Origin: Daphnia pulex
Taxonomy: Eukaryota > Arthropoda > Branchiopoda > Diplostraca > Daphniidae
Length of the DNA stretch: 64,000 nucleotides
Reading direction: 5' to 3'
NCBI RefSeq assembly: GCF_021134715.1
Contig: NC_060027.1
Span: forward strand, 2,356,001-2,420,000
This document shows positions 13,645 to 40,988 of the stretch, one piece after another; the first letter of the stretch is position 1, and every line of letters starts with the position of its first letter. The notes under the pieces are model-generated. The model was given only the letters and a program-made list of their open reading frames with translations, did not search any database and was not told the DNA's origin. The translations under genes were made by a program, and so were the position numbers.

Positions 13645-13648
13645 GCTC

Positions 13649-13684: not shown

Positions 13685-13728
13685 CGACTTTTTCTCACCC
13701 CTCCTCTTAAGCCTTCCGGTTATTTTAC

Positions 13729-14227
13729 CTTTTTGATAATGATGCAAAACTTCCCGTTCTCACCCAACCTCTACACCACTGACACGTTCTACATAATGAT
13801 CTCCATGACCTTCGCTTGAAATGCAAACTGGCCTTTCCTTCTGCAGGATGAAGTTGCTGGGGATGGGTCTACAAAAACCAATATCAAAATGAAAACCAAA
13901 TAGCTTAACCTTGCAGCTATTGTACCTGCTTGATAATGATGAAACACGTGTCATTCTCACCCAACCTTCTACACCTCCGCATGCCAGTTTTACGTAATGT
14001 TTCTCGTGACCTTCAAGCGAGAAGGACATCCTGTCTGGACAAACTGGTCGACCTGTCTGCAGGTTGACTTGCATGCAAAAAACACAACGAAGACATGCAA
14101 ATAATGTAACGAATCTAAAATTCCTCACATATGTTGACTGCAAGGTTACCTCGAGTATGAGTGACGATTCCCCAGAGCTCTTCTTCCAAACTGATATCAG
14201 GACATCGCAAAAGGCCAGTAACGGCAA
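13729..14227 (-). pseudogene. Mirror copy of the duplicated Cys-containing exon pair (right arm)
   Basis: Identical on the minus strand to 3734-4232, including the same frame break in the second block. It carries no independent information about function. Shared damage shows that the decay predates the last arm homogenisation. Confidence 0.3.
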
Positions 14228-14429
14228 CCTGCGCCAACTCCATTGACCCCAAAACGAAATTCACAACATTCGTGTTTGTACATCTGTTGGAAAGAATAAA
14301 ATGATTATCGGCTATATGGGTTTTAAAAATAAAATTGTTTCCTATTATGTGTCTGTACTCATGTTCATACATGTTTTCATGTACAGATCTGGTACATGTA
14401 CCTACACATTACAGGTTATTCACTACACA

Positions 14430-14930
14430 CTCTTGCTGTGACTGAAACTCTAAGCAGCAATGGGACAAGGAAATTATCTACGTTAGTATTTACAAATTTA
14501 CACAAATTTACCTATAAGAAATAAATCTCTAACTAACTCTTAGCTGGGTTGCCTTCTAATCCAAAGTAAAAACAGCCAAAACAACAAACATGCTGTTACA
14601 GGGTACACCACCAAAATTGCAAGATTCAGAAATGATCCTATGGTTCATAAGCAAGAATACCTATGTTTTATGAAAATACCTTATCTTGATACATCTGTAT
14701 TCCTCTATGTGTGGGCTTCAAACATGAGTTTTAGGCTTTTGACAGCATGAGGATCTAATGGATGGAAATTGACTGTGCGCTACAGTCATTTAGTTGGAAT
14801 GACTGACAGTATGCATCTAGAATTTGAAGAAATAAGTTAGAATAACATAAAAATAAGAAAAATAGGTCAAGCTGAACCTTTATTAGATATGAAGTTAAAT
14901 TTGATATTTGAAATCACAGAAAGAATGTTA
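14430..14930 (+). repeat. Boundary repeat R, copy 4 (outer right, extends past the palindrome)
   Basis: The longest outer copy. It starts inside the right arm and continues beyond the arm end at 14652. It aligns with copy 2 on the same strand through ATGACTGACAGTATGCATCT to about 14930. Divergence from the inner copies is much higher than between the arms, so R copies predate the arm homogenisation. Confidence 0.75.
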
Positions 14931-18056: not shown

Positions 18057-20142
18057 TTAAACATATTTCTCAGGGCGACTATCTTTACCTTTTGGAAATT
18101 GTTTCGGGGTTTGGGTTTTTATTGGTCCCTTATTCCTTTCTGCTAATGTTTTAATTTCTTCAATTACCTTCTTACATTTGTCTTGAAGACTACGCTCTAG
18201 TTCTCCTGGGTTCTCTCTTTTCGTCATCATCTGCTCCACTTCTGCAAACAATTCTCCAATATTTTCCCTGGATCCCTCCAGGTAGATCTCGATAACGGTT
18301 TTAACCAAAAGCAAGTCTTCCTTTGTCTTATTCAAGTTGAGCGAGATTTTTTCGGAATGTTGGTGGCTCCAATGGGTAGACGTACGATTTGCTTCTTCAA
18401 CAATTTCGAGGTTCTTCTTGGCACCAGATTGAATGTCTCTAAAAATGGCGACAAATTTGTTCCAACTGACGTCCAGTTTTTTTAAATTATTTTTCCTCAG
18501 CCGATTAAGCGGGTCGCTAGTGTTCCCAAGCAGTTGCAAGTCTTCATTAAGTTGGTGCATTTCGTGTCTCAAGCTTTCGGCTGTGATCAGTAACTGATTT
18601 TCTTCTTCTCTTTTTTTCCGGGCTTCTTCTTCTTTGGCATGAAGGAATTTCATCGTGTTTTCTAGTTTTGATTTAGCTATTCCTGTTGACTGATTGGCCT
18701 GCTGAATTCGGTAAGGATCAGGTTCGGAACAGTACCAAATGTCCCATCTCACAGTTCTCCAGTTATATGCCCAATCGCAATTAGTTTTTTCAGAATGCAA
18801 ATCTTTTAAGGCATCCATAGTATTATTAAATTCTGCCTCATCCCTTTGTTTTTTCCTTCTCCAGTTCTCGATCTCATGTCTAATGAAAACAATTTCCTCC
18901 TCGATTTTCTTCTTCCTGACGTATCTCGACTGTATCTCAGCGGAGGTGGTCTTCAACTGTTGCTCTTTATCTGACTTGGACGAAGTGTGAAATTTAGTAA
19001 GCTCATCGACTAAATAAACCAATTCTCCAAACTCGCTGGCTATTTGACTGGAGAGATTTAAAGTTTGGTCGCTGGTCTCTTTCAAGTTCTTCAACGGTAA
19101 ATATATAAATTCGATTATTCGGCTGGAATTTTTGAATTTCTCCAAATAACCGGCGACTTCTTTTACTTTGCTAGGCACAAAGAGACTGTGCATTTTAATC
19201 TGGTCTGCATTGGTAAGGGAGACTAAGAAAGCGTTGTTAAGCTTTTGACTAATCTGCAACAGAGTGGTGCGGAAGCTGTGGGTATACTGAACAACTGGAG
19301 ACGGATTTCTTACAGTTCCCCGGAAAGCTGAGTCAAGATTTTGCATGGACATACTCATCAATCGCGTAAGAAAATACGCGATGCGAGGAAGTGGCGTAAG
19401 CAAGTCTTCAGCACGAAAGATTTCGTTCCCTTCAGACCCGATAGATTGTTCTGCGTCTGCTTTTAAAAAAGTATGATTAGAATTTATGTCTGTTTCTTGC
19501 AATCACGCTGAGTATGTTGCTACCTTCAGCAGTCACTGGGGTTGGAGTGGATGTTGCCCAATTAGGCCCGTGTGGCGGCGATTCTCTTGGAGCGTTTCCC
19601 TTGCTTCCCGGTCTATGTGTGTGGGACACGTCTTGTTGGTACGGCAAATTTGTCTTGTTCCCAGAACGATAAATATTATTCAACTGTTTTTGCTGTTCTC
19701 CATTTCGAGATTTCTGCGATTCTTGTGGCATCTCTGACATTGGATTATCAGGCGAAGGTTGGATAGTAGTAGTAGGGTAGGCCAAAGTTGAAGTCTCGGT
19801 CTGATATGCAGTTTCAGTTGCTAAAGAAAAAAAAATTTAATTCACCATGTACGTATCTAACGGGTGCAGTTATTACGATGAACTCACTTGTTATTTCCAC
19901 TGGATTAGCTAGAGTTGTAGTTGATGTTATATTTGCTTCGGTACCTGATTCTACCCTTCGAGCTAAATATTGAGACCTCAACGTTTTAAGATCCCCTTAT
20001 AGTTAATAAAAATTTGAATTAGACAGTTTATCCAGTAAAATGATTTAGTCATAAAAAAATTACCAGAAGGAGATCCGATGGCGGAAGATAGAAGAAGAAA
20101 TAAAATTGCAACATGACAACTTTGTCGATTAAATGATGCCAT
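18057..20142 (-). CDS. Secreted large helical (coiled-coil) protein, member A, 617 aa
   Basis: Four exons fit in phase: 20142-20064, 19962-19888, 19820-19524 and 19459-18057, all joined at phase 1. Exon 1 encodes a signal peptide (MASFNRQ...FLLLSSAIGSPSG). Exons 2-3 encode a Thr/Pro/Ser-rich linker. The long last exon encodes helices and coiled coil rich in E, K, R and Q. SFRTTLLQI (about residue 212) and SWNKFVAIF (about residue 484) match motifs in the large neighbours at 24328, 27437, 31888 and 35106. A Cys/Trp-rich patch (NCDWAYNWRTVRWDIWYC) lies between the long helices. Divergently paired with 20665-21726. Function is unknown; secretion is supported, and any pore-forming or structural role is inference. 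Confidence 0.8.
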
Positions 20143-20664
20143 AATGCTATTACTCTGATGAGCGAGCGATCCCACTATGAAAATCTCTTAGTTTTCTGCC
20201 TCCTTTTAATACGATAAAGGGCAGTCCGGATTCACCCAGTTCCCTCCCACTTCTATAATCGTCTGGGAAATTTTAATTTTGCAACGTTTTCGTGTCATAT
20301 TTCAAAGTTAGATAAAAATCAGTCGACGGTTTCTGGTTACGAAGAGGTCCATGGATTTTGGATTCTTTCCAGTTAAGGGAAATCTATAGCGTAAGATTTA
20401 ACGAAAATTTAATTAACATTGAATGCTCCTCGTTTCTCTGATGAATCATTGTAATACGACCGTCTTGTTTGTTGTAGTTGATGGCCAATAGACGTCGATC
20501 GGCAGCATTTATTTATCAGACTGGGTTTTTCCTTTCCCATGCACAGCGAAACGCACGATATTCCGTTTCTGCCAGCACATCTTAAAGCCGGGGGAAATCG
20601 GCCGGCCCTGTGGAACCGCATTAAACACATGTCCGCGATAGCGCCTAGAACAGTCACATCTAAA
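20143..20664. promoter_or_regulatory. Shared divergent intergenic region A/B (522 bp)
   Basis: Both flanking genes start outward from this interval. A TATA/Inr is visible only for the minus-strand gene. Co-regulation of the pair is inferred from the layout and from the same layout in two neighbouring pairs. Confidence 0.45.
20175..20211 (-). promoter_or_regulatory. TATA/Inr promoter of member A
   Basis: On the minus strand a TATTAAAA box (20211-20204) precedes an initiator-like TCATAG with its A at 20178, a spacing of 33 bp. The first ATG after this start is at 20142, which supports that as the coding start. Confidence 0.5.
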
Positions 20665-21726
20665 ATGCAGAGTCTTGCGGCAAAAATCGGAATCTTGGTC
20701 GTGCTAGTAGGCAAGTCTTTCCTTTACACACACCAATTTTGCTATTCATTCAAATTCAATAAGCGATTATTCACCCACGCGAATACGCACATTTATATCT
20801 TTTTAAAACTTACGTGAATTGGAATTTCCTTTGTTTTTCTTTCTTCAGGTTCATTAGAGTGTGTTGCAGTAGCTCCTCCAAACCCATTGCAAGAAATGGT
20901 TCTAGAGATTCGCCCATCTTTCGGTGAAGGATTGCAGCATCTCGAAAATTTGTTTGACTTGTTCCATCTAACTCTGACTGGAACAGAATTTGAAATGGAA
21001 GCCCCTAGTAATAAAGAGGAGATACAGTTAGCTATTCGCCAGACCCACGATTTTTTTTCTGAAACCGAGAAGATCACAGCCAAGCATCAGAGACTCTATG
21101 ATGAGAAGTTTCTTTCTCTAACTCACAACATCTCTGTCCTTGAAATAAACATAAATCAGCAAGAGAATGAGCTTACCCAGTTGAAACGAGAAGAAGGCAA
21201 AAAGCAAGTCGAATCCGCCAAACTAGTCGTGAAAAACATTTTTTCATTCAGGAAAGGTAAAATCAGTTTACGAATATAAGACTTATGCACATTTAATTCG
21301 ATTGGAACTTAAAATAATCTATAATATATATTGACCCTTACAGGCATTAACAGAGAGATTCTAGCTAAAATTCTAGCAATAAAAGCAACCGTGAAAGAGA
21401 TTGTTGATCGTCACAATTCGATGGCGGCATCCATATCAAGCTTGAAATCAAATCTGATTTCTTCTCGTTCGGAACTCAGCAGACTGAGAGATGAAAGTTC
21501 GTTAATTGGGAGCTTGGGCTCCAAAATCAGATCCATCACTACGTTTTTGACTGTGCTTCATGGAAAAGTGAACGTCATGTCCAACACACAGCAGTGGCGG
21601 TATGAGTTTGAACCCTTGCTTCTATCCATTGATGATTTGATCAAATTTCTCCAAAGTCGTGAGGATCTGATGACGTCACTGGCGAACAAACAAATCGTGG
21701 ATAAAATTAGAGATAAATACTTTTAA
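20665..21726 (+). CDS. Small secreted helical protein, member B, 278 aa
   Basis: Three exons: 20665-20710, 20849-21256 and 21344-21726. The signal peptide (MQSLAAKIGILVVLVG) is split by the first intron. That intron starts with GC inside a strong AG|GCAAGT donor consensus, the only donor that keeps the frame. Then LECVAVAPPNPLQEMV, a long coiled-coil helix, a short hydrophobic/basic stretch (LVVKNIFSFRKG) and a second coiled-coil helix. It is a clear paralogue of 22537-23675: shared LQxMVxxI, LQHLENLFD/LSHLENLFD, and GxKIRxITTxLTVxxGKV. The helix-hydrophobic-helix layout is seen directly; what it does is unknown. It may act with its divergent partner A. Confidence 0.8.
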
Positions 21727-22536
21727 ATACTTTAAAAATTAACCAGTTTTTTACTCAGCAGTAATGTTACGCTTTTAACAAATTCATAGGCTAGTGATGA
21801 CAACCGACTAATTTCTGCACAAAAGTTAAATACAATTTAAACTAAATAAAAATGTGTGAATTTAACTGCAAAGTGGACTTGCCAATAAACTTTCAAATAG
21901 CTGCAACAGTACATGTGGAAATTCTGAATGAATACAAAGCTGAATTTTATTTGAAATACCCACTAACCTTAAACTGCTTTAACGAAAAATGGTCCATTAG
22001 GCAGAAAATATAGTTTGCCTTCATACAACAGCTTTTTTAAAACTAGATTTATCATTTCATCTTCCTACACGGTTTGTTTTAATTGCACACATCGGAGTGG
22101 TCGTTAATTTTTGTAAAATGTTATCATAGAGAGCAGAGTAGTCGTTATAAAAACTACGCAGCAAAATGATGGAAATACTATAAAATCTGATATGTTTGTT
22201 ATCATTGTTATCAAAAACTTTTCTCTGCTGTCGAGAAACATGATACACTGTTTAGAAAAGGATGGCTGGGAAAATTTAATGGACTTGGACTGTCACTGAA
22301 CCTCCGCTGAACCTGAACGAAATGTGTTATCCATTTTAGCAGACGAAACTAGAAGAAAGATGGATGTCGCCAGTTCGTTGTTGCCGGGCACGCCGGGCAT
22401 ACTGATAACCTCTGGGTTTTTCCATTACAACAGAAACCAAAATATCTATAAAAAACAGGATTGCCCTACTTGAGCTATTAAAAATCAGTGCTTCAAAAAA
22501 GGAAAAGTCAAGAGAAACGTGCTTCGCAAGCTCACA

Positions 22537-23675
22537 ATGTCTTCAAATATTTTCAGGGTAATAGGGTTAATAACTCTATATTCCTTAATAATAGGTAAAT
22601 TACTTTAATACTTTTGCTAATTGATTGTCGGCGTCTTCATACCATTTTCATGGCACTTTTTTTTGTAACAGGGACATTGCAGGCTCTTCCGTGTGCCAAT
22701 CCTTTACAAAAGATGGTCATCGATATCCAACAGCCGTTTACTGAAGGACTGTCGCATCTCGAAAATTTGTTCGATATGGTAATGAATTACGATGACAATG
22801 ATGGCCACACCACGGAAAAGCCAATCGTCTACGCACCGATACAGAGAGCGATTCGATGGACGTTCGACTCTATGAGTGACTCGGAGCTTTTGACACAAAA
22901 ACATTTGAAACGATACGAGGCAAAAGTCTTGGCTCTGGCGGAGGATATTGCCGACAAAGAGAAACGAATCGTTAAGGAGAAAGCTGCATTGGAAAGTTTG
23001 AAAATCGAGTTATCCGAGAGAAAGAAGCAAATGAAAGTCCTCCGTGAACAAGTTTCGGATATTGAAACGAAGCTCAGACAATCTGAAGAGAGAGCCCAAT
23101 AACGGGCCCGAGACGAAGCCTCTAGACGGAAGAACAAGAGAGTTGGATGGATATTTGCAACCATTTTTACATTTGGTAATAATTTCTAGATTTGCAAACA
23201 TGCAATAGTAGTAGTGGATTATGTTTGTTACACAGGTCTGGTCAACGAAAAGGAATTGCAAAACGCTGAAAGAGACCGTGATGCTCATCAAAGTAACGCC
23301 CACGAGCGTCGTCAAACGTTAATCCAATTCGAGAGCAATTTACGCGATATTTCACTCCGCCAAGGGGCCACGGAGCAGTCAATCGTGGCGACGGAAGCCA
23401 GTCTCACTTCGGTTCGATTTGTCCTCCATAAATTGAAAAGCCAAGATCCGGCCATGAGAGGATTTGGGGATAAGATTCGCAACATTACCACCTATCTGAC
23501 TGTTTGTCAGGGAAAGGTGGAAGTGATTTATTCCCAGCAAAAATTATTGGTCCTCTTTGAGCCGCTTCTGAAATCAATCGACCAACTTGTCTTGTTCTTG
23601 GAATCTAACGATGAGACCACGTCTCTCTTGGCCGAAAAGAATATCGTTGAAAAAATACGGAAATACATGAATTGA
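22537..23675 (+). pseudogene. Small secreted helical protein, member C (paralogue of B) with an in-frame stop
   Basis: Exons 22537-22594, 22672-23175 and 23236-23675 join at phase 1 and would span 334 codons. It encodes a signal peptide (MSSNIFRVIGLITLYSLIIG), CANPLQKMV, a coiled-coil helix, a hydrophobic stretch (VGWIFATIFTFG), a second coiled-coil helix, and GDKIRNITTYLTVCQGKVEV as in member B. A TAA at 23100-23102 interrupts the frame, but coding-like sequence continues on both sides with good splice sites. It is therefore a young pseudogene, a polymorphic null allele, a read-through gene or a sequencing error. The intact equivalent region in B supports a real gene originally. Confidence 0.7.
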
Positions 23676-24327
23676 GATTGATGTGACGCTTAAAAATGTG
23701 TTTATTTGTTGTTGACTATTTTTAAATTTCATGTTAACGACGCAAATGAAATGGCGTTGTTGTGTTGCAGATAAAAAAAGAGTTCGTTTTTCATAGCTAC
23801 TATGAAATTTGGACTTGTTCGTTGAGTTCCTGATAACCTAACATGAACGATTCCATCCGATCATATCATTTCTGTGAATTGAACACATCGAAATATGAGC
23901 AAGGGTATTTCGAAATTTTGGGTTGGTCTGAAAGTTTGACAGTTTCACTTGCTGCGTATTTATTTGCCCCGGGTGTAATCTATATAGTACGATCAGCAGT
24001 TTCGAGAAGAAGAAAAAATGGCAAAAGTAGTTATCAGTATACAAATAGTTAAATACAAGACTTTTAACCTTTATTTCAAGCAATGCGCCATTCCATATCT
24101 CTTTGTTGATAGCACAACGGATCTTTTACACTTTGGGGTTTTCCGTTGGCGGGCGTCAGCAGCATTTCCAACACATGGAAAATCTGTACTAAAATTGTGC
24201 CGATTTCACTTACTATTAATTGATGAACAAAATACGCTTAGTCTTATCATTTAAAAATGTCTTGTATTGTAAGCGGTATTCATACAATTTATGTCCTGAA
24301 TTAAAATCAATAACGTAAAACGCTTTC
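23676..24327. other. Spacer between members C and D
   Basis: A convergent 3' to 3' interval of about 650 bp with AT-rich sequence. No gene supported. Confidence 0.4.
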
Positions 24328-26739
24328 TTAAAGTTCGTTGTCTTCGGGAGATTTGCAGTTGGTTATCCATCCGAATTCTCTCGTGATTTCATCATGCCGC
24401 TTTAGTATTTTATTTTCAATCGAATCCTCGTCGTCCTTAATCATTTGCAGGATCCCTTCATAAGCTATTCGACCGTCTTCCGACAGTTTGTTTTGCTGCC
24501 TCTTGATTCCAACTAGTCCAACCTTGTTGACGTCAATGCTGATCATGGTGTCCAAATTAGAAATGCTGTCTAGGATGTATTTTTCTGAAACGGTCACGTA
24601 CATGTTGGCGATCTCGTGGACGAGGAAGGCCGCTTCGTTGGCTTTTCCAATGTGACCCAGCAGTTCCTCAACTAAGACGGTAACATCCAAGCCGGAAATA
24701 TCCTCACTTAACGAATGGACGGCATCAATAAACGCGAAACTCTCTTTGGCGGCGTCGTCGATGAATTTGGCGATATTAGAAAAGAATCGAATCAGTTTAC
24801 TCCAATTTTCTTTCAACTGTCCCAGCTCGATTAGGGCTTCTTTCAGAGCTTGGATAGCCTCTTGATATGTGACTCTGTTTAAATTCAGACTCTTAATAGA
24901 GCTTAATATTTGCATCGTCTTTTGTCGTCGAATGTCCGTCCTCTGCGCGTTGAGGCTCAGCATACGTTTGGTTGTTTGAATCATTTCCTCCAGCATTTCA
25001 AATTGGTTCTCGTACACCTTGGTCCAAGTGTCAGCCAACTTAACGTTTTCCATCATGGTCGATTTTTCCACGGCAACTTCTTTGATTTTTTCCGCACGCA
25101 GGTGGTTCACGAGAAAAGCCAAATCGTCCATTTCTTCTGTCCCCGGACACATCATTTCCAGTTTCCGCTTGGCGTCAAAATTGGTGTTTTTCAATTTCTT
25201 GATTAATTCCGCTAATTTGGCGAGAATGACTTTTACACTCGTACAAGGCTGGAAGCTGTTGTATGTGTTGTTTAGCGACTCAACATTTCCGGTAAAATTG
25301 AATTGCTGGTAGTCGGAAGATCCTTGCCAAGTCTCGTACACATCTCTAAATTGGGCCATTTGAATGAGCAGGTCAAGCAGCTGTTGACTGTTCTCTTCAT
25401 AACAAGGATCTCTGTTGATGCTGTTTTCTTGAAAAGTGTACTTCCAGTTGCCGGCACGAAAAAAGATGTCCGGGTGTTTTTCGTGACCTCCTTTTTCTCG
25501 CTCCCTGCTCAGGTTGAGATTAAGACATTCGTCCCCGTTAGACGTTTCGACGTAAATGTCTTGCTGACGTCTCTCAAAGTTGCCCAACATTTTGGCCAAT
25601 TGTTTTTCTTTCTGTTTCAGCAAATCCGCTTCGTCATCTGAATATTGTTTGACTATCTCGGTCATCTTCAGATCCGTTTCAACCCTCTTCAACGTGATCT
25701 TCTTTTTATCTTTGGTATCGGCCACTGCATTGATAGTCTCCTCAATCAGATTCATTACCGTGGTGAATTCGGCAACCACTTCTTGCGAAAGCTCTTTACT
25801 CTGGTCGGCCGCTTCTTTAATGCGTCCCAGCGATATGGGCAGTAAGTTGACGATGTAAAGCTCTTGTTTGGACATCAGGTAGCGGGTGGCGTCCTTGATG
25901 TGGCTGGGCACGTTTGAATTGTACATTCGGATCTTGTCCATGTTGGTGTGAGCTTTTAGGAAGGCCAGGTAACCACTATGGCTGATTTGAAGTAAAGTGG
26001 TTCGGAAACTCTTGGGGTACTTGATGTGCTTGAAACCGCCGGTTGGTAAATTGACATCGATGGGAAAATCCATTCTCTTGTTAGACATGAGGATGAGTTG
26101 GCCTAGAACACTGATGGCAATGGGAGCGGGAGCTAGAAGTTCACCCCAATTGTAGTACGTTTTCATTAGTGTTCTTATTTCGTCGTAAAGATTGGTCTCG
26201 TCAAAAGCGAACTTCTCCGAAGAATGGTATCGTTCTTCACATGAAACTTTAATAACAGGCAAAAAAGTAATTCAATTTTAGACTTCTCCGTATCACACTT
26301 GTGTCACAAAAGTGTTGTCTACTTGTTCTAGGGCATTTTTAAGGTAACTTCGATAAACGTATATACATAAAACCGAAATAACCAACAAGCTTATAGTTAT
26401 AGCCTAGCTACTTGTCTATATTTTTGAATTGATAAACACTTACGGTTTATTGACGGTGTCATCACTGGGCTATTTTCTAAATCCGCAGTTAGATTCCAAG
26501 CCGGTGTCTGCCCATCGCGGAGTCTTTTTAGTTCATCTGAAAAATAATTACAGCATACAAAAAAAATTTAGTGAAGTTATATAATTTTTGAATTTTAGAC
26601 ATTTTAGAACAACCCGAGTTTAACAAATCTTACATAGCCCAAATGATGGCACTGCTGTTGTCCAACCAAAAAAAGTTAAACAAACAAGCAACTGGACATA
26701 AATTCCCGGTCTGACCGTATTAGGATATTGCGCAGCCAT
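24328..26739 (-). CDS. Secreted large helical protein, member D, 705 aa
   Basis: Three exons fit in phase 1: 26739-26634, 26536-26444 and 26246-24328. It encodes a hydrophobic signal region (VQLLVCLTFFGWTTAVPS), a short linker, and one very long helical exon. SFRTTLLQI is at about residue 146, followed by AFLKAHTNMDKI and VPSHIKDATRYL. LKENWSKLIRFF is at about residue 548. The middle (about residues 250-370) is charged and Cys-containing, without the hydrophobic segment seen in 35106-37690. A 289 bp stretch (25800-26088) is almost identical to 28090-28378 in its divergent partner, far above the rest of the gene. Role unknown; the family is discussed in the findings. Confidence 0.85.
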
Positions 26740-27436
26740 TAAACAGTGTGTTAATATGGGAAAGAAAATTTCTTTTTGTGTCCAGTATTATCTGACCCAC
26801 TCGTCAGAGCAAGACCAAGCTTGCACAAGCTTGAGACGTTGAGAGAGACTTTGTAACGCAGTGTGCGTAGAATAAAACCAAGACAAACCGCTGCTGGCAA
26901 ACGGACAAAATAAAATACGTATAATAAAATTTAAAAGAATTTTCATACATAATGAAATGCAATGATTAAAAATGTTTTCTAAACTAAAAAAAAATAATTA
27001 AAAAAAAAGAAATCACTGTAAGATTTCTTCACATCTAACTAAACAAAAACACAGAAAATCGATCCTTGCTTCTGGAGATAAACCAGTAAACATTTTTTGG
27101 GGTTTTCCGAGTGCTCTTTCTGACACGACATTAAATTTGTCGCAAACATCAACATAATCCATGTCGATAAACTTTATACTTTTTTTTTTATTTTAAGTCC
27201 CAGTTACATGACTAACTAAATCAGCGATTCTTGTGTAGTGTCAAAAGTGCAAAAGTCAACCTTGTTTATTTTTTTGCGGGTTTCATTTTACACATCTATT
27301 GGATGGATGCTCCACAATTTCAATTTCCTCCAGTTATATGTTAGAAGTAGGCGTGTCAGTAGCTGTATGATGGACTTGAGTTGCTTTAAATACGTATACA
27401 CTTCCTTGAGTTTTACGAGTTTTATGAGCCGTCAAA
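26740..27436. promoter_or_regulatory. Shared divergent intergenic region D/E (697 bp)
   Basis: Separates two outward-facing paralogues. A weak TATA-like TTTAAATA (27385-27392) lies about 45 bp before the plus-strand ATG. Nothing clear is seen for the minus strand. Confidence 0.4.
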
Positions 27437-29669
27437 ATGGTTGCACCAAATCGTCGCAACGGTGGGGCCCAATTCCTTCTACTTTTAGCAGCCGTTATCA
27501 GCCTCGCTTTGGCATCCCCTGCACCATCGCTACGTAAGAATTTATACGCAATCTGACCAGCTGAATGTAACCTCCCATTCCTAATTTGCAATTGTTTTTT
27601 TTTTTATATTTTTTTTTAAAGAAAATTTGAAGAAACAACGAGAGAAAGCAAAGAACAGGCTGTTTTCAACTACTACCACTACACCAGCTCCTTCTTCTAA
27701 TGAATGTGAGTCATTAATTAATAATAACTATAATGCAGGTTTAATTTCGCGAAATTATTACTTTACATTTGTATCTTTTTTTATCCATGGTTATGTGGTA
27801 GTTTTGTGTGCATAATCTGATAAGATAATCAAATGCATTGATAGTATAATATTGATCGTGGTTCAATTTTAAATTTTGTTTCGCTGTCAAAATGAGGCAA
27901 ATCAAATAATAATTTGTATTTCCTCTTTCAGTAACATGCGAGGAAAAGTTTAAAAACGCAGAAAAATTCACTTTCAACGAGACAGCATTGCACGGCGACA
28001 TCAGGAAACTGATGAACACTTATTACGATTGGGGGGCTCTGTTGGCTCCGGCTCCAGTAGCTATAAGCGTGTTGGGGAAGCTCATCCTAATGTCTAACAA
28101 GAGATTGGATTTTCCCATCGATGTCAATTTACCAACCGGCGGTTTCAAGCACATCAAGTACCCCAAGAGTTTCCGAACCACTTTACTTCAAATCAGCCAT
28201 AGTGGTTACCTGGCCTTCCTAAAAGCTCACACCAACATGGACAAGATCCGAATGTACAATTCAAACGTGCCCAGCCACATCAAGGACGCCACCCGCTACC
28301 TGATGTCCAAACAAGAGCTTTACATCGTCAACTTACTGCCTATATCGCTGGGACGCATTAAAGAAGCAGCCGACCAGAGTAAAAAGCTTTCACAAGAAGT
28401 GGTAGAGGAATTTAAAGACGTTGTGGGGTTGATTCAAGAGACCATTCTAGCCGTGTCAGACACCAAGAGCGATAAGGAGGTCAAGTTGAAAGGAGTTGAG
28501 CTCGACATCCAACTCAAGCACATTACACCTTCTATGATCGGCAAGTAAAGAACGACAGGTGCGCAGATCAAAACACCCAACATCTATCAGATGTTCTGGT
28601 TACGGTCGGTCAATACAGATTAAAGTACGAGTCGTGGCAGAACTCGAGAGCAACTCGACCCTTTAATGGTTTGGAAGATGTAAGTAAATTGCAACAGATT
28701 TTTATTACCATGGTTCGATGTGATTCTGTCGTGGAGCTGATGGACAAAGGAGGAAGATTGGTCAATATGTTGCAAAGCGCCAAGTTTGAATTATTGCAGA
28801 AGAATAGCACGCGCCCGGGAGCTGAAGAGATGGACGATTTGATCCGCATAATCCATCACGTTCGGGTCTCTGCTAAAGTACAAGAGAAAAGTGTGGTCAA
28901 TTCAACAAATTTCCGCGGCGAAAGTTTGGTGGATATGTGGGAGTTTTCTTTCAAGCATCAACTTCAAATGTTGCAGAGCATGATCAATACCACCACCGAC
29001 ATTTTGAATGTCAATCACAGGCAAATGAAATTACAGCGGAAGAAAAACGAGGAGATCATCGGAAGAATCAAACAGCTGGACCTAGCCAAAATCAGCCACA
29101 AAGAGGCGATTGAAGCGCTGAATGACGGACTGGAAGTGTTGGGACTATTGCAGCGAGACTGGCTGAAGTTAATCGAATTTTATGAGAAAATGTCGCGCTT
29201 TATAAGCAAAGCCACCGAAGAAATCGAAGCTCTCGTTGAGGTGGTCAGAGTAATGAGTAAAGATGTGTCAAATTTGGATGACGACGAAATGTTTGGAAAT
29301 TTACTGGAAGCTGTTGAAAAATCTAATCAAGCCGCGTTCCTCATCCACGGAGTATCTGAAATGTATGTCAATGTATCGCAAAACTTTATAATGGATCGTG
29401 TTGCCAATCTGGATAACATGATGAACATCAACGTCAATAATGTCGGGCTATCTAAGGTTCTTGAAGAGCAGAGATTACTGAAGGAAAGCGCCCAGACTGC
29501 TTACGATGGCATCATCCAGTACATCAAAGATGGAGAAGATATTTTAAAAAATAAGCTGCTGGAGCGCCGCAATCAAATCATGGACGAGTATCATTGGATG
29601 ATGGACTGCGCGGAATCGGTGGATCGTGAATTTAGCATTACCAACAGAGGTGATCCTGTAAACCAATAA
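27437..29669 (+). pseudogene. Secreted large helical protein, member E, probably broken by a deletion/frameshift
   Basis: Exons 27437-27533 (signal peptide, FLLLLAAVISLALASPAPS), 27622-27705 (TTTTTPAPSS linker) and a long exon from 27932 join at phase 1. The frame then ends at 28546-28548, just after the SFRTTLLQI/AFLKAHTNMDKI/VPSHIKDATRYL domain. About ten bases later it resumes in another frame (about 28560 to 29669), with DRCADQNTQ..YESWQ aligning to DPCYEENSQ..YETWQ of member D. About 80-90 residues present in D are missing at this junction. LQRDWLKLIEFY and the C-terminal helices remain open. No in-phase splice pair was found to bridge the gap, so a pseudogene or assembly error is favoured over an intron. 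Confidence 0.6.
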
Positions 29670-31289
29670 AACTGATGCCTTGTTAGTTGTTGTTTTTTCA
29701 TGTACCACATCAAACTAGAAAATATAATAAACCCATCTACAGTTTTCCAACGCCTGTTAGATTTTTCTCTCATGGCATTTCTTTTTTTTTGGGACACGTT
29801 CCCTGTATCTGTTGTACCCTCCAGTAACATAATGGCGTCGTAGTTTCAGTTAATCGCGGTGATATTGTAGTCCGGTGCGATGCAAACGACCCAAAAAATA
29901 TTGGCAAATCGGCGACAGCAAACGGGCGAACAAGTTCCAATCCCTTCGGCGGCTTCTGTTGATCAATCAAATTGTTCAAGCTGAATATCAGAATTAAAAT
30001 ATCAACTTTCAAAGATGTTCCTGCTCCCACTTCAATTTTATTGGCAAAATCATCAGAATCACGATGACTTGAATGTGGGTCTTGTGGGATGAGTTTGAAT
30101 ATTCAACCGATGAAATTTAGCCATCTTTTATTTCCTTTTTTCTTTAATGTAGTTGTGGAAGCATTGATTCTCCATCTGGTTTATGATTTAAACAAAACTT
30201 AATAAGTATTAAGGACATTTTTAATTTGATGGCTGGTTTATCTTCTTCCTGGTTTACCTCAAATACTGACATGAACACCTTGATGATTTGGAATATTATT
30301 GAGCCGTTGTTCCTGATTTCAACTTAGGTTATTACCAACGTGATTGTTGGTACCTGCGTCAAAGTAGTTTTTGACTTTGAAAAAGGCCTAGTCTCAAAGT
30401 GCTGCTGGTCATCGTGTTGGTTGTAGAACACAGTCTATGGAAGGGATTAAGAAAAGATTTCAAGTTGTGTAGCAAAATTTAAATTTTGCAAACTGGACTA
30501 TTAATGATTGTGCTGTGCACAACTTCTCTTACATTAAATACTTACACTGTGGCCTAACTGTTAGTGCTGTTGCCTGTTGATCTGCTTTCAGTTGGAAGAT
30601 AGGTAAATCAAAGATGATGTTCAGACCTACAAGGATAGCTTTAGCTTCACAATAAGGGAATGAAAAAGATATAAAAAAATTTAAAAAATGTTATGACTGT
30701 AAATACAGCAAAATAGTGTGACCTTTCAAAATTGAATAAAACTGAAATATGCAGCATCCCATTTGAGAGTTGGACAGGTTCAATTAATAGCTTCGGACAG
30801 TTTCCTTAAAAAGAACCAACACAAAAAATATATATTTTCTCAAAATTTGTTATTTTTTTATGCACATAGTTCTGTCATGGTATAGGATTTGGTTCCGTCG
30901 TTCTGTGCCCAAAACTTAGAAAACAAAATGACATAATATGGTTCATCTCTACTTTACACAGGTACAGCCACAGGTTAAATAACAAATATTCCATACAAAG
31001 TAATCTTAAGTTTCTGTTCTTCGACCGTACCAGACAGAAGACGATACAGCATACAGTCAACTCAAACTCCACCAAGCAACAGCGTTACAGCGAAAAACGA
31101 TTCCCGCGCAGACGAACGATGCATGATTCGATAAAGAAGTACAAAATTCCTCTACTAGAGTACAAGGTGTCATAAAGAATGTCAATGAGATGGATGTAGA
31201 GTTGTGGACTCCTGGGGGTTCAAGCCTTCAAGGGGGTTCATCTGGGTTCAACTTGAATAAGACCAAAAACGTTATTGTTATCAACAATT
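29670..31289. other. Intergenic stretch of about 1.6 kb
   Basis: AT-rich, with a polyadenylation-like AATAAA/ATAATAAA region shortly after member E (about 29722). No gene supported on either strand. Confidence 0.4.
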
Positions 31290-31460
31290 GTAGAAATTAT
31301 CGCAGCAAGTGGAACAAATGATGACGAAGAGAAAGAACCCAGGAGAACAACAGCACTGCCGTCGTCCAGGAAAATGTGAGAAGATATCGTATGAAATTAA
31401 AACGTTAACAGCTAAAGGAATAAGAACCTGCATCCCGAAAATAATTCAAAAAGGTAATTG
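31290..31460 (+). pseudogene. Orphan 3' fragment related to member A
   Basis: The translated stretch contains VEQMMTKRKNPGEQQ, KCEKISYEIKTLTAKG and a trailing IPKIIQKG. This matches VEQMMTKRENPGELE, KCKKVIEEIKTLAERN and QFPKG at the C-terminus of member A (18057-20142). Nothing upstream matches the rest of A. It is a partial copy on the opposite strand about 12 kb away, evidence of local duplication and loss. Confidence 0.7.
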
Positions 31461-31887
31461 TCGTTCTGAGAATTGTTTGAAAGTCGGGTCTTATGGAGGG
31501 AAGATGAATAAATACAAAAATATGATGGATGAGAGCTTTAATAAGTGAACTTTGATGCATAAAAGTAGAAATAAAGTCAGAGACGGAATCATGGCAGTCA
31601 AAGTAAAACTCGGTGCAAGATTAGCGTTTAGACTGTTATAACTACACTTCAATAATCTACCAGTCCTTCGCCTTGCAAGAACATAAAATAAGATATTAAC
31701 ATCAGGCTGTAATAAGCTATCCTTAAAAAATTACTTTTGCTTATAATTGACATATACCTACAACATTTTCAGGATAGGTATTTATTATTATTTTTCAGCA
31801 GTGTTTTTTAAAAGTACATCTAATATTCAAAGTAAACATATTACTAATTAAATGGGGGCAACAACGCGGAAATATTGCGCGGTGAAA

Positions 31888-34485
31888 TTAAAATTCTTCT
31901 TCTTCAATAGGATCTTGACTCAAAAAGATATCCTTTTCAATAGTAGTTTTAACTTCTTTCTCCACTTCAGCTTGTAATTCTTCTTCCGGTAATTGTCCAA
32001 TCAGAACAAGATTGTTTTTTTCTTCAGATATCTTCGTTCGTTCTTCTTCTTTTGCTCTCTCTCTCAAATCGTCCAGAAATTTGTATTCATTCTTGACCTG
32101 GCGAACTCTAGCTGCTACCTGCTCGACTAGTTGAAGTCTTCCATCGACAATCAGGTGCCCGATTTCGGCTGAATCACGCTCACATGATTGCAACAGCAAC
32201 TGGCGTTCGTAAGGTATCTGGTAAGGCTTCAGACCCATAAGTCGGTCCAACTTTTGAACATTGGGCATCAAATATTTGGTGGATATCTTGAAATAAGTGT
32301 CAGCCATTCCGTGAACTAGGGCGGTAGCTTGATTCGCCCGGGTCGCTTTAACGTGAATACCGTTGATGACGCTCATTTTGTGGATATTTCTCACCGATTG
32401 GCTAGTCGTTTCAATATCTTTGCTGAAGTCCTCTAGATGTTTGTTGCCAATCGACTCGATGACCGAGGATATGCTAACAAAGAAACGAACCAAATTAGAC
32501 CAATTTTCCTTTAATTCACTCAATTGAGTCAGCCCCATGTGGAGCATTTTAATGGCCTTCTCGAATTGAATCTCTTCTGTTTTCAAAATGGACATCTCTT
32601 GTAAAATTCGGACCAATTCTTCGGTTTTATTTATCGCCAATTTCCAATTCTTATCCAAATTGTTTCTCAGCTCCTCGAGCGATTTCGTGTGCAGTTTGAT
32701 TTTATAATTGGCCATGGCCATTGCTTGGCGACTTGCTCGCGACTCGTTGGGAATTTCTGAGGCCACAATGGGAGGTATGTTGGCTGTAGGTACCTTCTGA
32801 GCCATTTCTTTCAACTGGAGACATTGACCGATGAAACTCTTTTCCAGTTTCTTGATGCGAGAAAATTCTTTTCCCCTCTCTTCTTCAAAGGCGCGCGATG
32901 CTGTTTCTCGATCACTTTTTGAACTTTTTTCCGGAAGAGTTGGGGTTTTATGCGCCAGCTTGTGCATACTTTCAACATATTTCTGTCCGGTGACAATGGC
33001 ATCGCTGATAGGCTGACAATTGGTTACCTTTTTCAAAGCGGAAGCCAAATAATCTGAGTGTGTGGTGGCGTTATAACGACCGTTCTTGGAATTGATGGAT
33101 TCTAACGTCGGATAGTCGGTAGAAATTGATTGGCCGGTTGTGTAAAGAACAATTACCAGAAGTGAATGCATGGGAATGCAAGGATCGTTGTAGGAAGAAT
33201 TGCTCGCGGAAGTGGAATTATTTTCATCATTGGTCTGCGGTTTGTTCCAAGAACTTTTCCCAAAGGAAAACAGGCCAAATAATCCGCCTTAAAGTACAAG
33301 TGATTTTTATTACCAGAACTCAAATTTGAATAAATTTATGGTTTTCACCCAAAACATCGTTTAGAAAAAATTGTCCAATGTCCATGCCCAAGCGTTCAAA
33401 GGCTGTCGGTTTGGAAAGCCAGGCTTGCAATAAGTCTTCATGAGCTCGATCACTCTTCTTTAGGTCGTCCTTTAACTGCTTTTCAATTTGATTTAGATGC
33501 TGTTGGACACTATCGCTCGTCAGCTTTTTAAGGGACTGTTGTTCGACCACACTCAACTTGGTACCTTCTTTAGCACTTTTGGAACTAACAGCCGTCAAAT
33601 GGACCTCATCCGTCAGATTGGACAAGTACTCGAATTGGATGGCCACTTTCAATGACCAGTTTAAACTGTCGTTAATGGCAGTTCTCACAACTCGTAATGG
33701 TCGATGAAGACGGGATTGAATGACTGTAAAGTTACCAGTTGCTAAAATTCGAGTAGCTTCGTTCATGTAGGAGGGAACAGTGAGTGTCGACAGTCGAATC
33801 TTGTTCATATTGCTGTGTGCTACCAGGAAGGCCTTGTAACTTTCGTGACCGATTTGCATCAGAGATTGGCGAAAACTGGTCGGATGTCGCATGTACTGAA
33901 AACCTCCAACGGGCTTGTGATCGTTGATGGTGAAATCGTTGGTTTGCGTAGCTGACATCATTAGACTGCCGAGGACTCCCAGACTAATGGGAATAGGAGT
34001 CAGAAACTGTTCCCAATTCATATGCTGACTGAGTTTAGCCATGAATTCAGCCTCATCTCCTTTGGCAATGTTCCGATTGGCAACATCAAGTTTTTCATAT
34101 GGTGTCACTGCAATTTACACAAAATCAATCCAGTATTAATTTTTTAATATTAACACACCAAAAATATTTCTACAGCATAATGTAAACGTGACTTACGTTC
34201 GTGGTAAGGTTTAGGTGTCGTAGTCGTCGTAGTTGTGGTGGTGGTAGTTGGAATCCCAAGTCTGTCTTCCTCTGCCCATCTTTTTTCGGCTGCTAGTCTT
34301 CTCTTCTCCTCCAAATATTTTGCTCTTCTCTGAGCTATTTAACATAAAAACAAATTTATAACTGCTACTTTTTAGAACATTAATATAATCTTACAAAATG
34401 TCTCTTGTGTTGTTGCCACAGAAAATACGACAGCCAAAATGACAGACCACGAATAAAACCGTGAGTATCGTCTGCTTTGGGCCAT
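31888..34485 (-). CDS. Secreted large helical protein, member G, 795 aa
   Basis: Four exons, all joined at phase 1: 34485-34395 (signal peptide, SVILAVVFSVATTQ), 34334-34197 (charged helix then a run of about ten Thr), 34107-33349 and 33287-31888. The 61 bp intron (33348-33288) is required; without it the frame ends at 33320. SFRQSLMQI lies at about residue 154 and LKENWSNLVRFF at about residue 590. The join of exons 3 and 4 creates a Gly/Phe/Leu-rich hydrophobic stretch (FFLNDVLGGLFGLFSFG) between two long helices. The C-terminus is acidic (QDPIEEEEF), like that of its partner at 35106 (EEVEPEEF). Best paralogue in the window: 35106-37690. Confidence 0.85.
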
Positions 34486-35105
34486 AGTTGAAGAAGGTGA
34501 TTTCGCTTTAGAAAAATTAAAAATGTGTTGGAGTAATTTTAATTTTGCTGAAACTAGTCGACCAATAATTCAGCCACTTAATTGTACAAGATTCACTTAA
34601 CAACTGAACTGAAAGAAATTGAGAGGCAAAAGTTTCTTTACGAAATCGTTATCGCATATTTTAAAAAATAAGCATGATTCTTTCATTCTTTGAAACCGAT
34701 TTCGAATTTCTAGACTGCTAAAGTAATTGAATCCATCTAGATAAGGAGTCCAAAGTGGCAAAGTCAGGGTCTGTAAGACTTTTGACTTTAATGACATCGG
34801 TTTTTCCCACTTCCAATATTAAAACCGATTAAAACTTTGTTATTGAGTTATTGTTGATAACCGTGAGGTCACACGTATACCGACCAATGTTGGTAATAAA
34901 GTAAACCAGCAATTGCGCAGCTCTTAATTTTTTCAGTAGAAATGATTGCGACAGCGTCTTAACACAGGATTTTCCAAATCTGATATGGCTGGCTTATGTT
35001 TCTGTCGCGTTGAATTGATAATTCAGAGCGAGGTTTTTCAAAAAGTCAAGTTTTGTTGGCCGATCAGACCAGAAACAATTTCGTTGCTCGTCGGCATCAC
35101 AAGCC
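34486..35105. promoter_or_regulatory. Shared divergent intergenic region G/F (620 bp)
   Basis: Lies between two outward-facing, closely related genes. No confident TATA box was found for either. Inferred to hold both promoters. Confidence 0.4.
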
Positions 35106-37690
35106 ATGGATTCGTCCTCAAAGAGTTTGTACGATTGGCTGCTAATTATTCTTTTAGTTCTTACAGCGGTTCCAACTGGTTCTTCTGCAACTCCAGTTGC
35201 GCAAAAAAATGCTCGTGAGTTACTTATTTTTTTAAAACATACTATTTTTCGAATTGTGTCGCCAACGCATTTCATATTTCCATTTCAGTGTGTCAAAATT
35301 TTCAATTTGAAATGCGGAATTGGTTTTCGTGTCTGCTGTATTTCCCTTTTATTTTGTGGTTATTTTTTTAACAAATGTAATTAATTCATTGCTGATTTAT
35401 GTTCTTGTTTTATCGCCCAATTGAAACATTTTTAGGAAGACTTTCTCAATTCGAAGTGAGCGCCAGCCTTACAGTCAATACTTCCGCTATAATAGCTGCC
35501 AACAACGCTGTAGCTACAAAAGCTGCTGTCGAAGAAGATTTCATGACTCAATTGAGCCTTCACATGGACTGGGAACATTTGCTGTCACCTGCTCCACTCA
35601 GCATCGGACTTTTAGGCGATCTCATCATCATGTCGTCCCAGGCTCACGATTTTGCGATCGACAGCGAACTGCCAAGGAGCGGTGAAATCAAGTACGTCAA
35701 ATACCCCAAGAGCTTCCGCGCCACTTTGGTTCAAATCGCCAACGGAGGCCACCGCGCTTTCATGATGGCCCACAACAACATGGACAAAATCAAACTGTTA
35801 ACGGGCGACGTTCCGGCCTACATGAGAGAAGCCACTCGAATTCTGGTGACGGGCGACGAAGAGCTGGTTCAGGACTATCTTCCGGCGCCATTGAGTCGCA
35901 TCCGGGAATCGGCTGTTCAGAGCGTCCTGCTGTCCAAAGCGGTCGTCTACCAATTCGAGCACGTCATGAATTTGACGGCGGAAGTGCTTGAAATGTGTAC
36001 CAGCGAAAAGAGCCAACAAGAGATGAATCTAAGAGAAAATCTGGATAAGGAGAAGATTCTCAACTTTACAATTCCGTTGGTCCAGCAAGAAATAGACCAA
36101 CTGAACCAGACCGTGATGAAAGATACGGCGATAATGGATCGGGCCGAAGACGATATGCGTCAGGCTCTGAAAGAAATGCCATCAGGATGGCAAATAATCG
36201 GCATGGATTTCACCGAGAGTGTGGCCAATATGGCGACCTCGTTCTTGACAGGATTGGGAAGGATTGCCAATCCTATCTCATTTTTTACTGACTTCAAAAA
36301 GGCTGTTTCCCAGGGGTATAATCCAGAATCGGATTCCAGCAATGATTCTACTTCCGGCGCCCAAGTTCCTGAACCGAGTTTGTGTCTCTTGCAGCACCGT
36401 ATGCAAATCTATAATCTGTTTGGTATTGCCAAAAAGTTGTGTCAAACCAACACGACCTTACAGTCCATCGACTCGGCTAAAGGAATATACAAAGCCACTT
36501 CCGACTTGAAAAGATTGGACAAGATGCTGGATGCAGTCAGCGAATGTCAGCCGATCGTTGACGTCATTGAAGAGGCCAAGTCCGTCGCAAATCAACTAGC
36601 AGACTTGGCCAAACTGAAAAAGTCAGAGAACGTTACGGATGAAGATTTCGCCCAAGAACGAAAATCTTCCTTCGAAGACTTGAAGGAACAAATGAAAAGC
36701 TTGCAAGCTTATGCTGGAAATTTGCACGAATTGGTGCTGTCAAATCAGCAGGCCGTCCCCAACAAAACACCGCTATTGTCCAGAGCTCAGCAGGCCAATT
36801 CTGGTGGCACAGCTAGCCAACAACAGCTGGCCAATTGCCGCTTTAAGGCCGACACGGCACGGGCCACTTTTCAGCATACCCGTGAATCACTCGACAAGAA
36901 ACGCGCATTGATGATGGAACACAATAAAGAGTACATCAAATTGCTGACGGAACAGCAGAGTCTGAAACTAGACCAGGTTCGCTACGACGAAATCATCGCC
37001 GCCTTGCAGGAAGGTCTCAGGACATTGGGTGTATTGAAAGAGCATTGGACCAAATTGGTCATGTTCTTCCAAAAGATAGCCAACATTGTCGAGCATGTCG
37101 CAGCCAAGAGCATTGAAGATTTCGCCAATCACATTGAGACTACCAGTCAGAAGCTCAAGCACGTCCATAAAGAATTCGTCATCGATGCCATCTATTCCAA
37201 AGCTTTGAAAGCTACTCAGGCTACCGCTTTGGTGCACAATATGGCCACCACTTACCTGGATGTGTCTGGTAAATATATCATGCCCAGCGTAGCTATTCTC
37301 AGTCGACTTAACGCCATCGATCCGAGAACGGCTAATGTTGAGCGTGCCAACTTATTGGCCAAGTGCCAAGAGGATTCGCAAAATATCGTCGATCTCATTA
37401 TTGTGGAAAAGGAAAAAGTCATCAGGAAAGTCGAAGCCCGTGAAGCGCAAATCAAGAAAGAATATGCCTTCCTCAACGACATAAGATCCAAACAAATTGA
37501 ATTTCTACGGCAGAAAACGCAAACTGAAATGCAACAGCAAGTTAAAAGAGGTAAATTGAATCAAAACCAATTGTCGGCCGCAGTGGAACAGACACTCGTC
37601 AAAAGGATTGAAGACGACGAATTCTTGAGAGAAAATCACGTTTTCAATTATCAAATCAACTCGGAAGAAGTTGAACCTGAAGAATTTTAA
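35106..37690 (+). CDS. Secreted large helical protein, member F, 787 aa
   Basis: Two exons, 35106-35214 and 35436-37690, joined at phase 1. Exon 1 encodes a signal peptide (WLLIILLVLTAVPTGSSA). The rest is almost entirely helical. SFRATLVQI is at about residue 129, with AFMMAHNNMDKI following. A hydrophobic stretch (MATSFLTGLGRIANPISFF) is at about residues 301-319, then a Ser-rich acidic loop (SDSSNDSTSG). LKEHWTKLVMFFQKI is at about residue 573, and the tail is acidic. The overall plan of long helix, hydrophobic hairpin-like segment and long helix recalls ClyA-type alpha-helical pore-forming proteins, but no sequence signature proves this. It is the most complete family member here. Confidence 0.9.
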
Positions 37691-37997: not shown

Positions 37998-40988
37998 TTA
38001 GCGATTCGTCAGCATTTCAAGAATATTTTCATGTTTAAATTTTCGAGCGACGTCTGCTGCCGTGAGTCCAAAGTCATCTTTCTTATCGATCAACACTTTA
38101 TTCTTCAGCAGAAACGTTACACACGAGTCCTAATTAAAATACATTCCTAATTATTAAACAATTTTAACCACTGGATGGGCAAAATAAGGTTTGTACCTGC
38201 TTGTGGTGAACTGCTAAATGAAGGGCTGTTCGATTGCTGACATCCGGTTGATTCAGATCAGCTCCAGCTTTCATCAACGAGGTCAGCCTTTTGACGTTTC
38301 CTTTAGCGGCGGAACTGCACAGCATTTCGCCAATCGTGTGAGGTCCATTCGTCAAGTGAGCACCACACTGGACCAAAACTGATATCTAAATAGTCAAATT
38401 AAAAACAGAAGAAGTTTATAAAAAATCCAACAGTAAAATGAAAACAATAATCAACACGTACAACTTCCTGATGATCACCAGACACGGCCGACATCAATGG
38501 CGTGTTTCCTAATCGATCCCTCGAATGGACGGATGCTCCTCTGCCCAGCAGGAACTCTACAACCGACAATCGGCCTTCACCAGCCGCCACATGAAGTGGA
38601 GTTCTACCATCACTGTCAGACGCAGACAAATTAGCACCGTATTTCTCCAACGATTCGAGTTTCGATAAATCTTCCGTCTATACACGCGACAAAAACAGAA
38701 TCAAATTACACAAAGCTGAAAAATACAAAGAATAATAGTTGAAAATCACCTTGACAGCGGAACAAATGAGTGAAGGAAAGAGAACATCTTTGAGTTGGTC
38801 CATTTCTTCACTGGAAGACAAGTGCAGGGATCGCGCCAAAGCTTCAATCAGTTCCATTTCTTTGACCAGCGTCGTATGCGGAAGCGTCAATTCTCCCCTC
38901 AAATTAGTCATCATCATTTGCCTCTTTGTGTCGAGATCCCACTCGTCTTTCGACAAAACGTACGACAATTTCGTCAGGGCGGCCTCAGGAGTCATATCGG
39001 CACCGGGGATGACTCCAGCTTCCAACAGCGCTGCCCCAGTTTCGTAAATGGCCTGAACAGCGCCGTGGCAGCACTGCGTCGTATTGATAATCAAAACGCC
39101 CTTTTGGGTAGCCCTACGCAGTTCATCGATGAGATCCAGACGATTAGAAGGGACGTTGCCTAGAACGACAAAAAGAAGATATTAAAATAAGTTGTCGATA
39201 GTGGGAAAAGCTACTAGACGGTCAAACTTACCCGATCCGTATGTCTGCATGACAATGCCTTCGATTGGCGGATGAAGAAGGGCGCGAACAGTTTGAATGG
39301 TGATACTGGGAAAGAGTCGAAGCAAGCAAACATTTCGATTCAAAATGGAATGGACACGAAACCGATCGATCGTCACCGGTCTAAAAACAGATCTGTATTC
39401 CACTAGAAAATTGAATGTCAAGCCCAAAGTTAATATTGCAAAAGCGACGCAAGAGTCTCGCATATTCATATTCAATTACCGTGCACGTCAATGCCAAAGT
39501 GGGCGAGCGACGGAAGATTGGGAGAGTCGAACGCGTCAAGGGAACCGTTGGAGCGTTTAACCGTCCGGTTGCCACGGTAGAGTTTGTGGTTGAAAAAGAC
39601 GCAAACCTCGGGGATGCAATAGCTTCCGGCCACGATCAAAGCCCCGAGGAAATTATCTCTTCCGTCGCTTCGGATTTCGAAAATGGGAATCTGCGAACCG
39701 GTGACAATTACCGTCTTGCCCAGGTTCTCCAGCATGAAAGACAGCGCCGAAGCCGTGTAGGAGAGCGTGTCGGTGCCGTGGAGGATGACGAAACCATCAA
39801 AGAGTTCGTACGATCGCTGCGTAATCGAGAAACCCGTTAAACGTCAAACGCAATTCATCAGCGCGTCAAAGAGAGAGAGGTAGGAAATGCAATCTCACCC
39901 TCAGATCCTTGGCGATATTGATCCAGTCATCCATTGTCATGTTCGACGAGTCCAATAACGGCTCGTACTCGTAAATGGTGTAGAGAATGCGCTTGGCGTC
40001 GGGACCGAGCGAAGGCAGAGCCAAAGGAGCCTTGTGGGTGTTTCCGGCGCCGAAACGAGCCGTCGCGTATTTCTCGTCGTGCAAATGGATGGCCTTTCGG
40101 ATCATTCGTTCCAGCGCATTCGCCATGGGCACCAGAGCTAAAAAAAAGCAATAAGAATCAAGGTCACAAGATGTTGCGCAACACGGAGGAATTCGCGTAA
40201 CATATCCAAGGCCAAACATCAAATAAAGCATCCAGGGACTCTATAAACAATTACAAGCCTTCGACATAACTCCGCCGAGTTCCTATCTGCCACGAAATTA
40301 AAATAAAAAAGGCAAGTCATGTAATTTGCTTTCCTTATCAGTCACATGGCGTCACAACAATAAATAACTTATCACCCTAGAAAAACAAAGGAGAAAGTTT
40401 TCGGCGAAAAAGCTATCCGGGTTTAATGACTTTTGGCATCTTCCGCCGAGAATGAAGACCAAACTGGTTTAAAAATACCGAAAGAAAAAGAGGCGTGGCT
40501 GAAATTTAAATTTAAAGTAACACGATTACACGCTGACAGCGTCAGTCGTACCATGTGACGTCAATCCGGCCTTCCCACAACCGGATCGATAAAAACGAAA
40601 AGGACCATGTGGGTATATAAGAGTAAACAAGGCTTAATTCTTACCTCCATTCTCGTTTCTCATCATGCCGATCGTTCCCCCTGTAAAATGAAACGAAAAA
40701 AGAAACAAAATAATTAAAGACCATGTTTTCATTTCAATCCAATCGTTCGCCATTTATACCCGTGTAGAGAACCAAGACTTTCGATTCGTTCTTGGCTTCG
40801 AGGTTGGCGCAGACGTCCATAGACGAGTGGCGCCATAGTTTCTTGGGAACGTGAGCCGCGTCGATAGGAGGGCCAGCGTTTCCCGGCGATGTAGAAACAA
40901 TTTCGCTATCGTCGTCCGCTTCCAACAAGGCACAAGACGCCGTCGCCATCGCCTCCGTCTCCTTGCGGCTGCTGCTGCTGCTCAGCAT
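37998..40988 (-). CDS. ASPG: L-asparaginase with C-terminal ankyrin repeats (ASPG/60 kDa lysophospholipase type), 652 aa
   Basis: Nine exons fit in phase: 40988-40760, 40680-40645, 40137-39899, 39816-39480, 39402-39232, 39159-38750, 38677-38462, 38385-38197 and 38129-37998. The type I/II asparaginase signature TGGTIGM (about residues 76-82) is split by the first intron; its Thr is the expected nucleophile. The second active-site motif HGTDT is at about 181-185, followed by SDGRDNFLGA. Ankyrin repeats occupy about 475-652 (DGRTPLHVAAGEGRLSVVEFLLGRG, NRTALHLAVHHKQ). Catalysis would be L-asparagine to L-aspartate and ammonia in the cytosol. Animal ASPG proteins share this asparaginase plus ankyrin order. 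ATGs at 40988 and 40949 are both possible starts. Confidence 0.92.

Follow-up and report, generated by a model that had tools for sequence, protein, structure and literature searches.

What do the proteins of a seven-gene cluster in Daphnia pulex do once, as their hydrophobic leaders suggest, they have left the cell? The window analysed here is a stretch of 64,000 nucleotides (C11:2356001-2420000) from a genome of 133.19 Mb in 13 contigs (labelled G000), and the cluster occupies its positions 18057-37690, with five genes of a large-protein family (G1 and G4-G7) and two of a small one (G2 and G3). We looked for sequence homology between the large and the small family and detected none; both are nevertheless predicted to fold like components of ClyA-type pore-forming toxins. 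The reading that we tentatively favour, with somewhat less than even confidence, is that the cluster holds two apparently secreted Daphnia families whose folds resemble ClyA-type alpha-pore-forming toxin components and which may serve as membrane-acting effectors. What this adds to the preliminary description of the locus is the ClyA-like fold predicted for two co-clustered families with no detected sequence relationship; membership in the ClyA family is not claimed.

For the large family, folds were compared through a model of P0002, a relative of G7 from Daphnia pulicaria. VIA-align ranked the ClyA-type toxin family first for both the large and the small family, and Foldseek ranked it first for the small family, Foldseek alone being weak for the large model. 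The proteins had earlier been proposed to be helical, and structure prediction of single proteins agrees, giving a helical, ClyA-like fold for both families. In the ClyA family, according to PMC6162564, a five-helix bundle is common to all components, the region between helices alpha4 and alpha5 varies among them and holds the membrane-active part, components are 15-45% identical in sequence, and systems consist of one, two or three components. We call the Daphnia proteins ClyA-like and do not file them as members because no sequence-profile match to described members was obtained, and because reported identity within the family is so low, such a match is not strictly defining. Their likeness to ClyA, Cry6Aa, XaxAB/YaxAB, Hbl/Nhe, AhlABC, SmhABC and MakABE lies in a predicted extended bundle of helices in which the stretch between the long helices varies and, with regard to ClyA-family alpha-pore-forming toxins as such, in the presence of more than one sequence-diverged component. 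Unlike those toxins, they come from animal genes that contain introns and encode a hydrophobic leader at the N-terminus, their large members have an extra insert of ~185 residues plus an N-terminal extension, and the two families, without a sequence match above cut-off, are known here from genes and predicted folds.

Gene models were built by reading splice sites by hand and checking frames by script, and yielded the following features (window coordinates):

18057..20142, minus strand: G1, large family, 627 residues, four exons, GT-AG introns of 68, 67 and 67 nt
20143..20664: divergent gap 1, 522 bp, between G1 and G2
20665..21726, plus strand: G2, small family, 278 residues, three exons, first intron GC-AG
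22537..23675, plus strand: G3, small family, three exons, in-frame TAA at codon 163 in this assembly
24328..26739, minus strand: G5, large family, 705 residues, three exons
26740..27436: divergent gap 2, 697 bp, between G5 and G4
27437..29669, plus strand: G4, large family, sister of G5, frame broken near 28545 relative to G5
31285..31458 (C11:2387285-2387458), plus strand: relic of a G1-like 3′ end, 49% identical to residues 414-473 of the G1 open reading frame used as query, one stop
31888..34485, minus strand: G6, large family, 795 residues, four exons
34486..35105: divergent gap 3, 620 bp, between G6 and G7
35106..37690, plus strand: G7, large family, 787 residues, two exons

Two of these seven genes, G3 and G4, look damaged in this assembly. 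The preliminary description had placed six genes of one helical family in three head-to-head pairs, each gene starting with a signal peptide. The pairs are real, and start codons at 20142(-)/20665(+), 26739(-)/27437(+) and 34485(-)/35106(+) reproduce its gaps of 522, 697 and 620 bp exactly; G3 (22537-23675, +) had been left off, and the gene at 20665(+), G2, belongs to the second, small family. A hydrophobic leader is encoded by the first exon of all seven genes, a call made from hydropathy only; the proteins are apparently secreted.

Homology among the five large members is far beyond chance, since G7 as query recovered the N-halves of G1, G4, G5 and G6, all at E 6.4e-12 or better. Their proposed common motifs SFRxxLxQI, a following AFxxxxxNxxxI and a VP motif were read in the translations of all five, and the C-terminal LxxxWxxLVxFF holds for G6 and G7, giving way to LIRFF in G5, LIEFY in G4 and, loosely, SWNKFVAIF in G1. 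The last of these is the most divergent large-family member, with a Thr-rich N-terminal extension behind its leader and an N-half that matches the family. Large proteins consist of two conserved helical halves with a variable insert between them; the small ones are hardly more than one long hairpin of helices, flanked by shorter helices.

Protein searches for the large family scored only the 7998 candidates with most shared words each, so that remote relatives could be missed; within this scope G7 as query retrieved 15 proteins of the large family, and A1, the large-family alignment used as a profile, retrieved 16. The small family comprised 2 proteins among 1137 candidates. The organism-named large-family matches (P0002, P0008 and P0009) are all from Daphnia, the closest organism-named relatives being proteins of D. 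pulicaria, D. carinata and D. sinensis. P0002 is 84% identical to G7, and P0017, also from D. pulicaria, shares 272 of 278 residues with G2; each lies on a contig of 4,432,852 bases, probably the same one. In the D. pulex genome itself, matching stretches at E <= 0.001 numbered 35 for G7, 14 for G1 and 33 for a short paralogue, and 10 stretches matched P0017 at E <= 0.01, counts that overlap and in which one gene can yield several stretches. Further large-family places lie on C10, C8, C3, C11, C2 and C4, and further small-family places on C3 at 4.23, 12.70 and 13.02 Mb. Six paralogues are short, with open frames of 355-441 residues; they match both ends of the large-family profile, with most of the middle absent. 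Several of the own-genome stretches contain stops, which suggests a picture of birth and death. Two distant relatives, at C2:12318943-12320598 and C3:7318070-7319491, gave their best matches to G1, and the family profile recovered the C3 one as well; their N-terminal hydrophobic segment follows a longer stretch, and they are possibly membrane-anchored rather than secreted. A small-family copy at C3:12697525-12698850 (minus strand) has an open frame that continues past the matched part into repeat units of the type LDSDARLEQVQ, a possible coiled-coil tail.

The preliminary description recognised no named domain, and neither family gave a match above curated cut-offs in Pfam or NCBIfam or a convincing sequence match in PDB; no strong match to a well-described domain family emerged from any of these, and the large family is best described as apparently secreted, helical and so far unnamed. 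The rows of lowest E-value came from coiled-coil or short stretches: P0017 against LIS_MGM1 (E 0.00098, with 19.7 bits against a cut-off of 27), a G3 piece against KH_DTX3L (E 0.0012, with 19.1 bits against 27.4) and the small-family profile against a PDB membrane protein (E 0.0091). The only ClyA-family row in the Pfam, NCBIfam and PDB sequence searches, a short paralogue against the alpha-xenorhabdolysin subunit A model at E 0.067, is treated as chance because SMC and other coiled-coil models score alike. Scans of genome contigs and viral contigs with A1 gave 66 and 136 pattern matches, respectively, none of them confirmed as a bacterial or viral relative, and in a BFVD fold search with the large model no match reached E <= 0.001, and none of the best 50 looked toxin-like.

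The strongest competitor to a toxin-like role, which we nonetheless judge somewhat unlikely, is that these are secreted helical structural or carrier proteins (lipid carriers, or components of the peritrophic matrix, mucus or egg coat) whose likeness to toxins is geometric only. The weak Foldseek result for the large model speaks for it, long-helix proteins often align to one another, and variable acidic or Ser-rich inserts are common in extracellular matrix proteins. It sits poorly with the finding that two families with no detected sequence relationship both rank the same toxin family first, and with the stop-bearing genome copies, birth and death being more usual in defence or conflict genes.

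If the favoured membrane-effector reading holds, the proteins would leave the cell as soluble helical bundles and enter the gut lumen or haemolymph, where the tip between the long helices would contact a target membrane; assembly, possibly of large and small members together, would then produce membrane-damaging or membrane-coating oligomers that could act as a defence or digestive effector. The tip was assessed in 16 large-family rows (G1 and G4 left out) by locating a landmark after the first long helix and taking the best 19-residue window of the next 75 residues. In the 15 of 16 rows with the landmark, which was not found in G5, mean hydropathy of this window was 0.45-1.47. Its rank lay between 1 and 13 in the 13 rows that had 624-717 windows; for the N-terminal piece from C10 it was 11 of 289, and for the C8 copy 41 of 684. 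In the small family, judged by eye on the alignment, G3 and three C3 copies have a hydrophobic stretch near the hairpin tip and the G2 tip is amphipathic; the most hydrophobic window of G3 after the leader sits in its C-terminal helix. The hydropathies in the large family are only moderate, and choosing the best window itself favours a high rank.

The middle of the large proteins is variable. Identity between G7 and P0002 is 0.89 over residues 61-278, 0.72 over 279-310, 0.73 over 311-495 and 0.92 over 496-763, and among 12 large-family sequences (66 pairs, not independent of one another) identity was lower than in both halves for 66 of 66 pairs in 311-495 and for 54 of 66 in 279-310. P0002 and P0004, compared pairwise only, showed a small drop (0.98, 0.91, 0.92), P0004 having an unrelated tail at its end that makes the second half not fairly comparable. 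The pattern is consistent with a conserved body for assembly and a contact end that diversifies; a floppy insert under relaxed constraint would give a similar picture.

The repeated divergent layout had been taken to suggest paired expression and perhaps partner subunits, with duplication pair by pair; this reading, with bidirectional promoters as the basis of co-expression, we now consider quite unlikely. If seven genes are oriented at random, they reach three divergent neighbours, the most possible, in 8 of 128 cases (0.0625), and the layout alone is therefore not strong evidence. Nor did the three gaps reveal a shared promoter element: intergenic matches between them extend over 10-19 nt only, the best being a 14-mer between gaps 1 and 3 (E 0.003). 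In a tree of N-halves, G4 and G5 are sisters with support of 99/99, and they share an inverted repeat:

25766..26217: G5 arm of the G4/G5 tract, inverted repeat of 452 nt, 89% identical
27961..28412: G4 arm of the G4/G5 tract, inverted repeat of 452 nt, 89% identical

Amino-acid identity between the two genes is 88% in the N segment (nonsynonymous divergence, dN, 0.07; synonymous divergence, dS, 0.46) and 37% in the C segment. Because identity is so high across these 452 nt and much lower outside, the stretch is a probable gene-conversion tract between head-to-head genes. That the sisterhood itself is an artefact of conversion was rejected, as a separate C-half tree still joins G4 and G5 (96/97); being sisters in both halves, they look like an inverted duplication, which argues against duplication as a pair.

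The third pair behaves differently. A second head-to-head pair lies at C10:16084702-16090389, with a G7-type gene on the minus strand and a G6-type gene on the plus strand, and for this reason the G6/G7 pair seems to have been copied as a unit. G6 groups with the C10 plus-strand gene, with C-half support of 98/99 and mid-segment support of 100/99, and is the best match of all three pieces of that gene; the minus-strand gene falls among G7-type proteins, beside those from D. carinata and from D. sinensis (N-half support 100/99, C-half support 92/86). Provided that the tree is correct, this duplication would predate the split of the D. carinata/sinensis and D. pulex/pulicaria lineages, with the qualification that the tree tool flags the C10 plus-strand gene, G4, G1 and others as long branches of unsure placement. 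In this assembly three open pieces make up the plus-strand gene and two the minus-strand gene, which may reflect introns or damage. The N-terminal piece of the minus-strand gene has a close match in P0015, which stops at the same position. Duplication as pairs has support for G6/G7 and not for G4/G5, and a cluster at C3:360-384 kb, where seven places share the plus strand and only a fragment near 376 kb is on the opposite one, indicates that a head-to-head arrangement is not a property of the family. The pair-unit comparison does not apply to G1/G2, their families showing no sequence relation; partner subunits, large with small, are plausible here because this pair joins both families and both have ClyA-like predicted folds.

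A bolder form of the membrane-effector reading, which we regard as unlikely, would give Daphnia an animal multi-component alpha-pore-forming system: two clustered ClyA-fold families, partly head-to-head, with conserved assembly bundles and a fast-diversifying tip that sets the target, its G6/G7-type pair older than the carinata/sinensis versus pulex/pulicaria split. Very doubtful is the alternative of ClyA-fold proteins, kept by Daphnia, that now form no pores and instead bind membranes or, through mixed assembly, neutralise incoming bacterial toxins that share their fold. For it speak the same fold predictions, the modest tip hydrophobicity and the G5 row without the landmark, and against it stands the absence of any bacterial relative by sequence in the A1 scan.

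Since ClyA-type alpha-pore-forming toxins are described as bacterial, an animal system would be unexpected and, if the resemblance is true, directly testable; in an organism used as a model of host-parasite coevolution, a family that is lineage-specific, expanding and intron-bearing would be a candidate uncharacterised immune or digestive effector. A search of the open literature, with most subscription journals and preprints outside its scope, returned among the papers listed none that dealt with these Daphnia genes or described an animal family of ClyA type. Daphnia together with ClyA occurred in one review, with Daphnia merely in a cited title, and in PMC3750612 ClyA appears in the reference list only. 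The sole eukaryotic precedent found for a ClyA-type fold is that of the oomycete Saprolegnia parasitica. According to PMC3681718, this species has nine copies of a haemolysin E-like family that the other oomycetes in that comparison lack; the family owes its name to its similarity to bacterial HlyE and is regarded there as recently acquired from enterobacteria. As far as that source portrays it, this family resembles those of Daphnia in being eukaryotic, multicopy, toxin-like and of the same fold class, and differs in that no bacterial sequence relative was found for the Daphnia families.

Neighbouring genes, recognised by eye only and with no relation to the cluster seen, encode an ankyrin plus asparaginase-like protein (38164-40231, minus strand), an RRM protein of NONO/PSF type (43834-44739, minus strand) and an RMI1-like protein (52283-53174, plus strand). 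Elsewhere in the window, positions 3309-14652 form a perfect palindrome, either a recent inverted duplication or an assembly artefact, with arms at 5506-8769 and 9072-12335 (3264 nt, 100%) around a 302-nt spacer and outer arms at 3309-5650 and 12311-14652 (2342 nt, 100%); it carries 24-bp tandem repeats reading YTTKAAEY.

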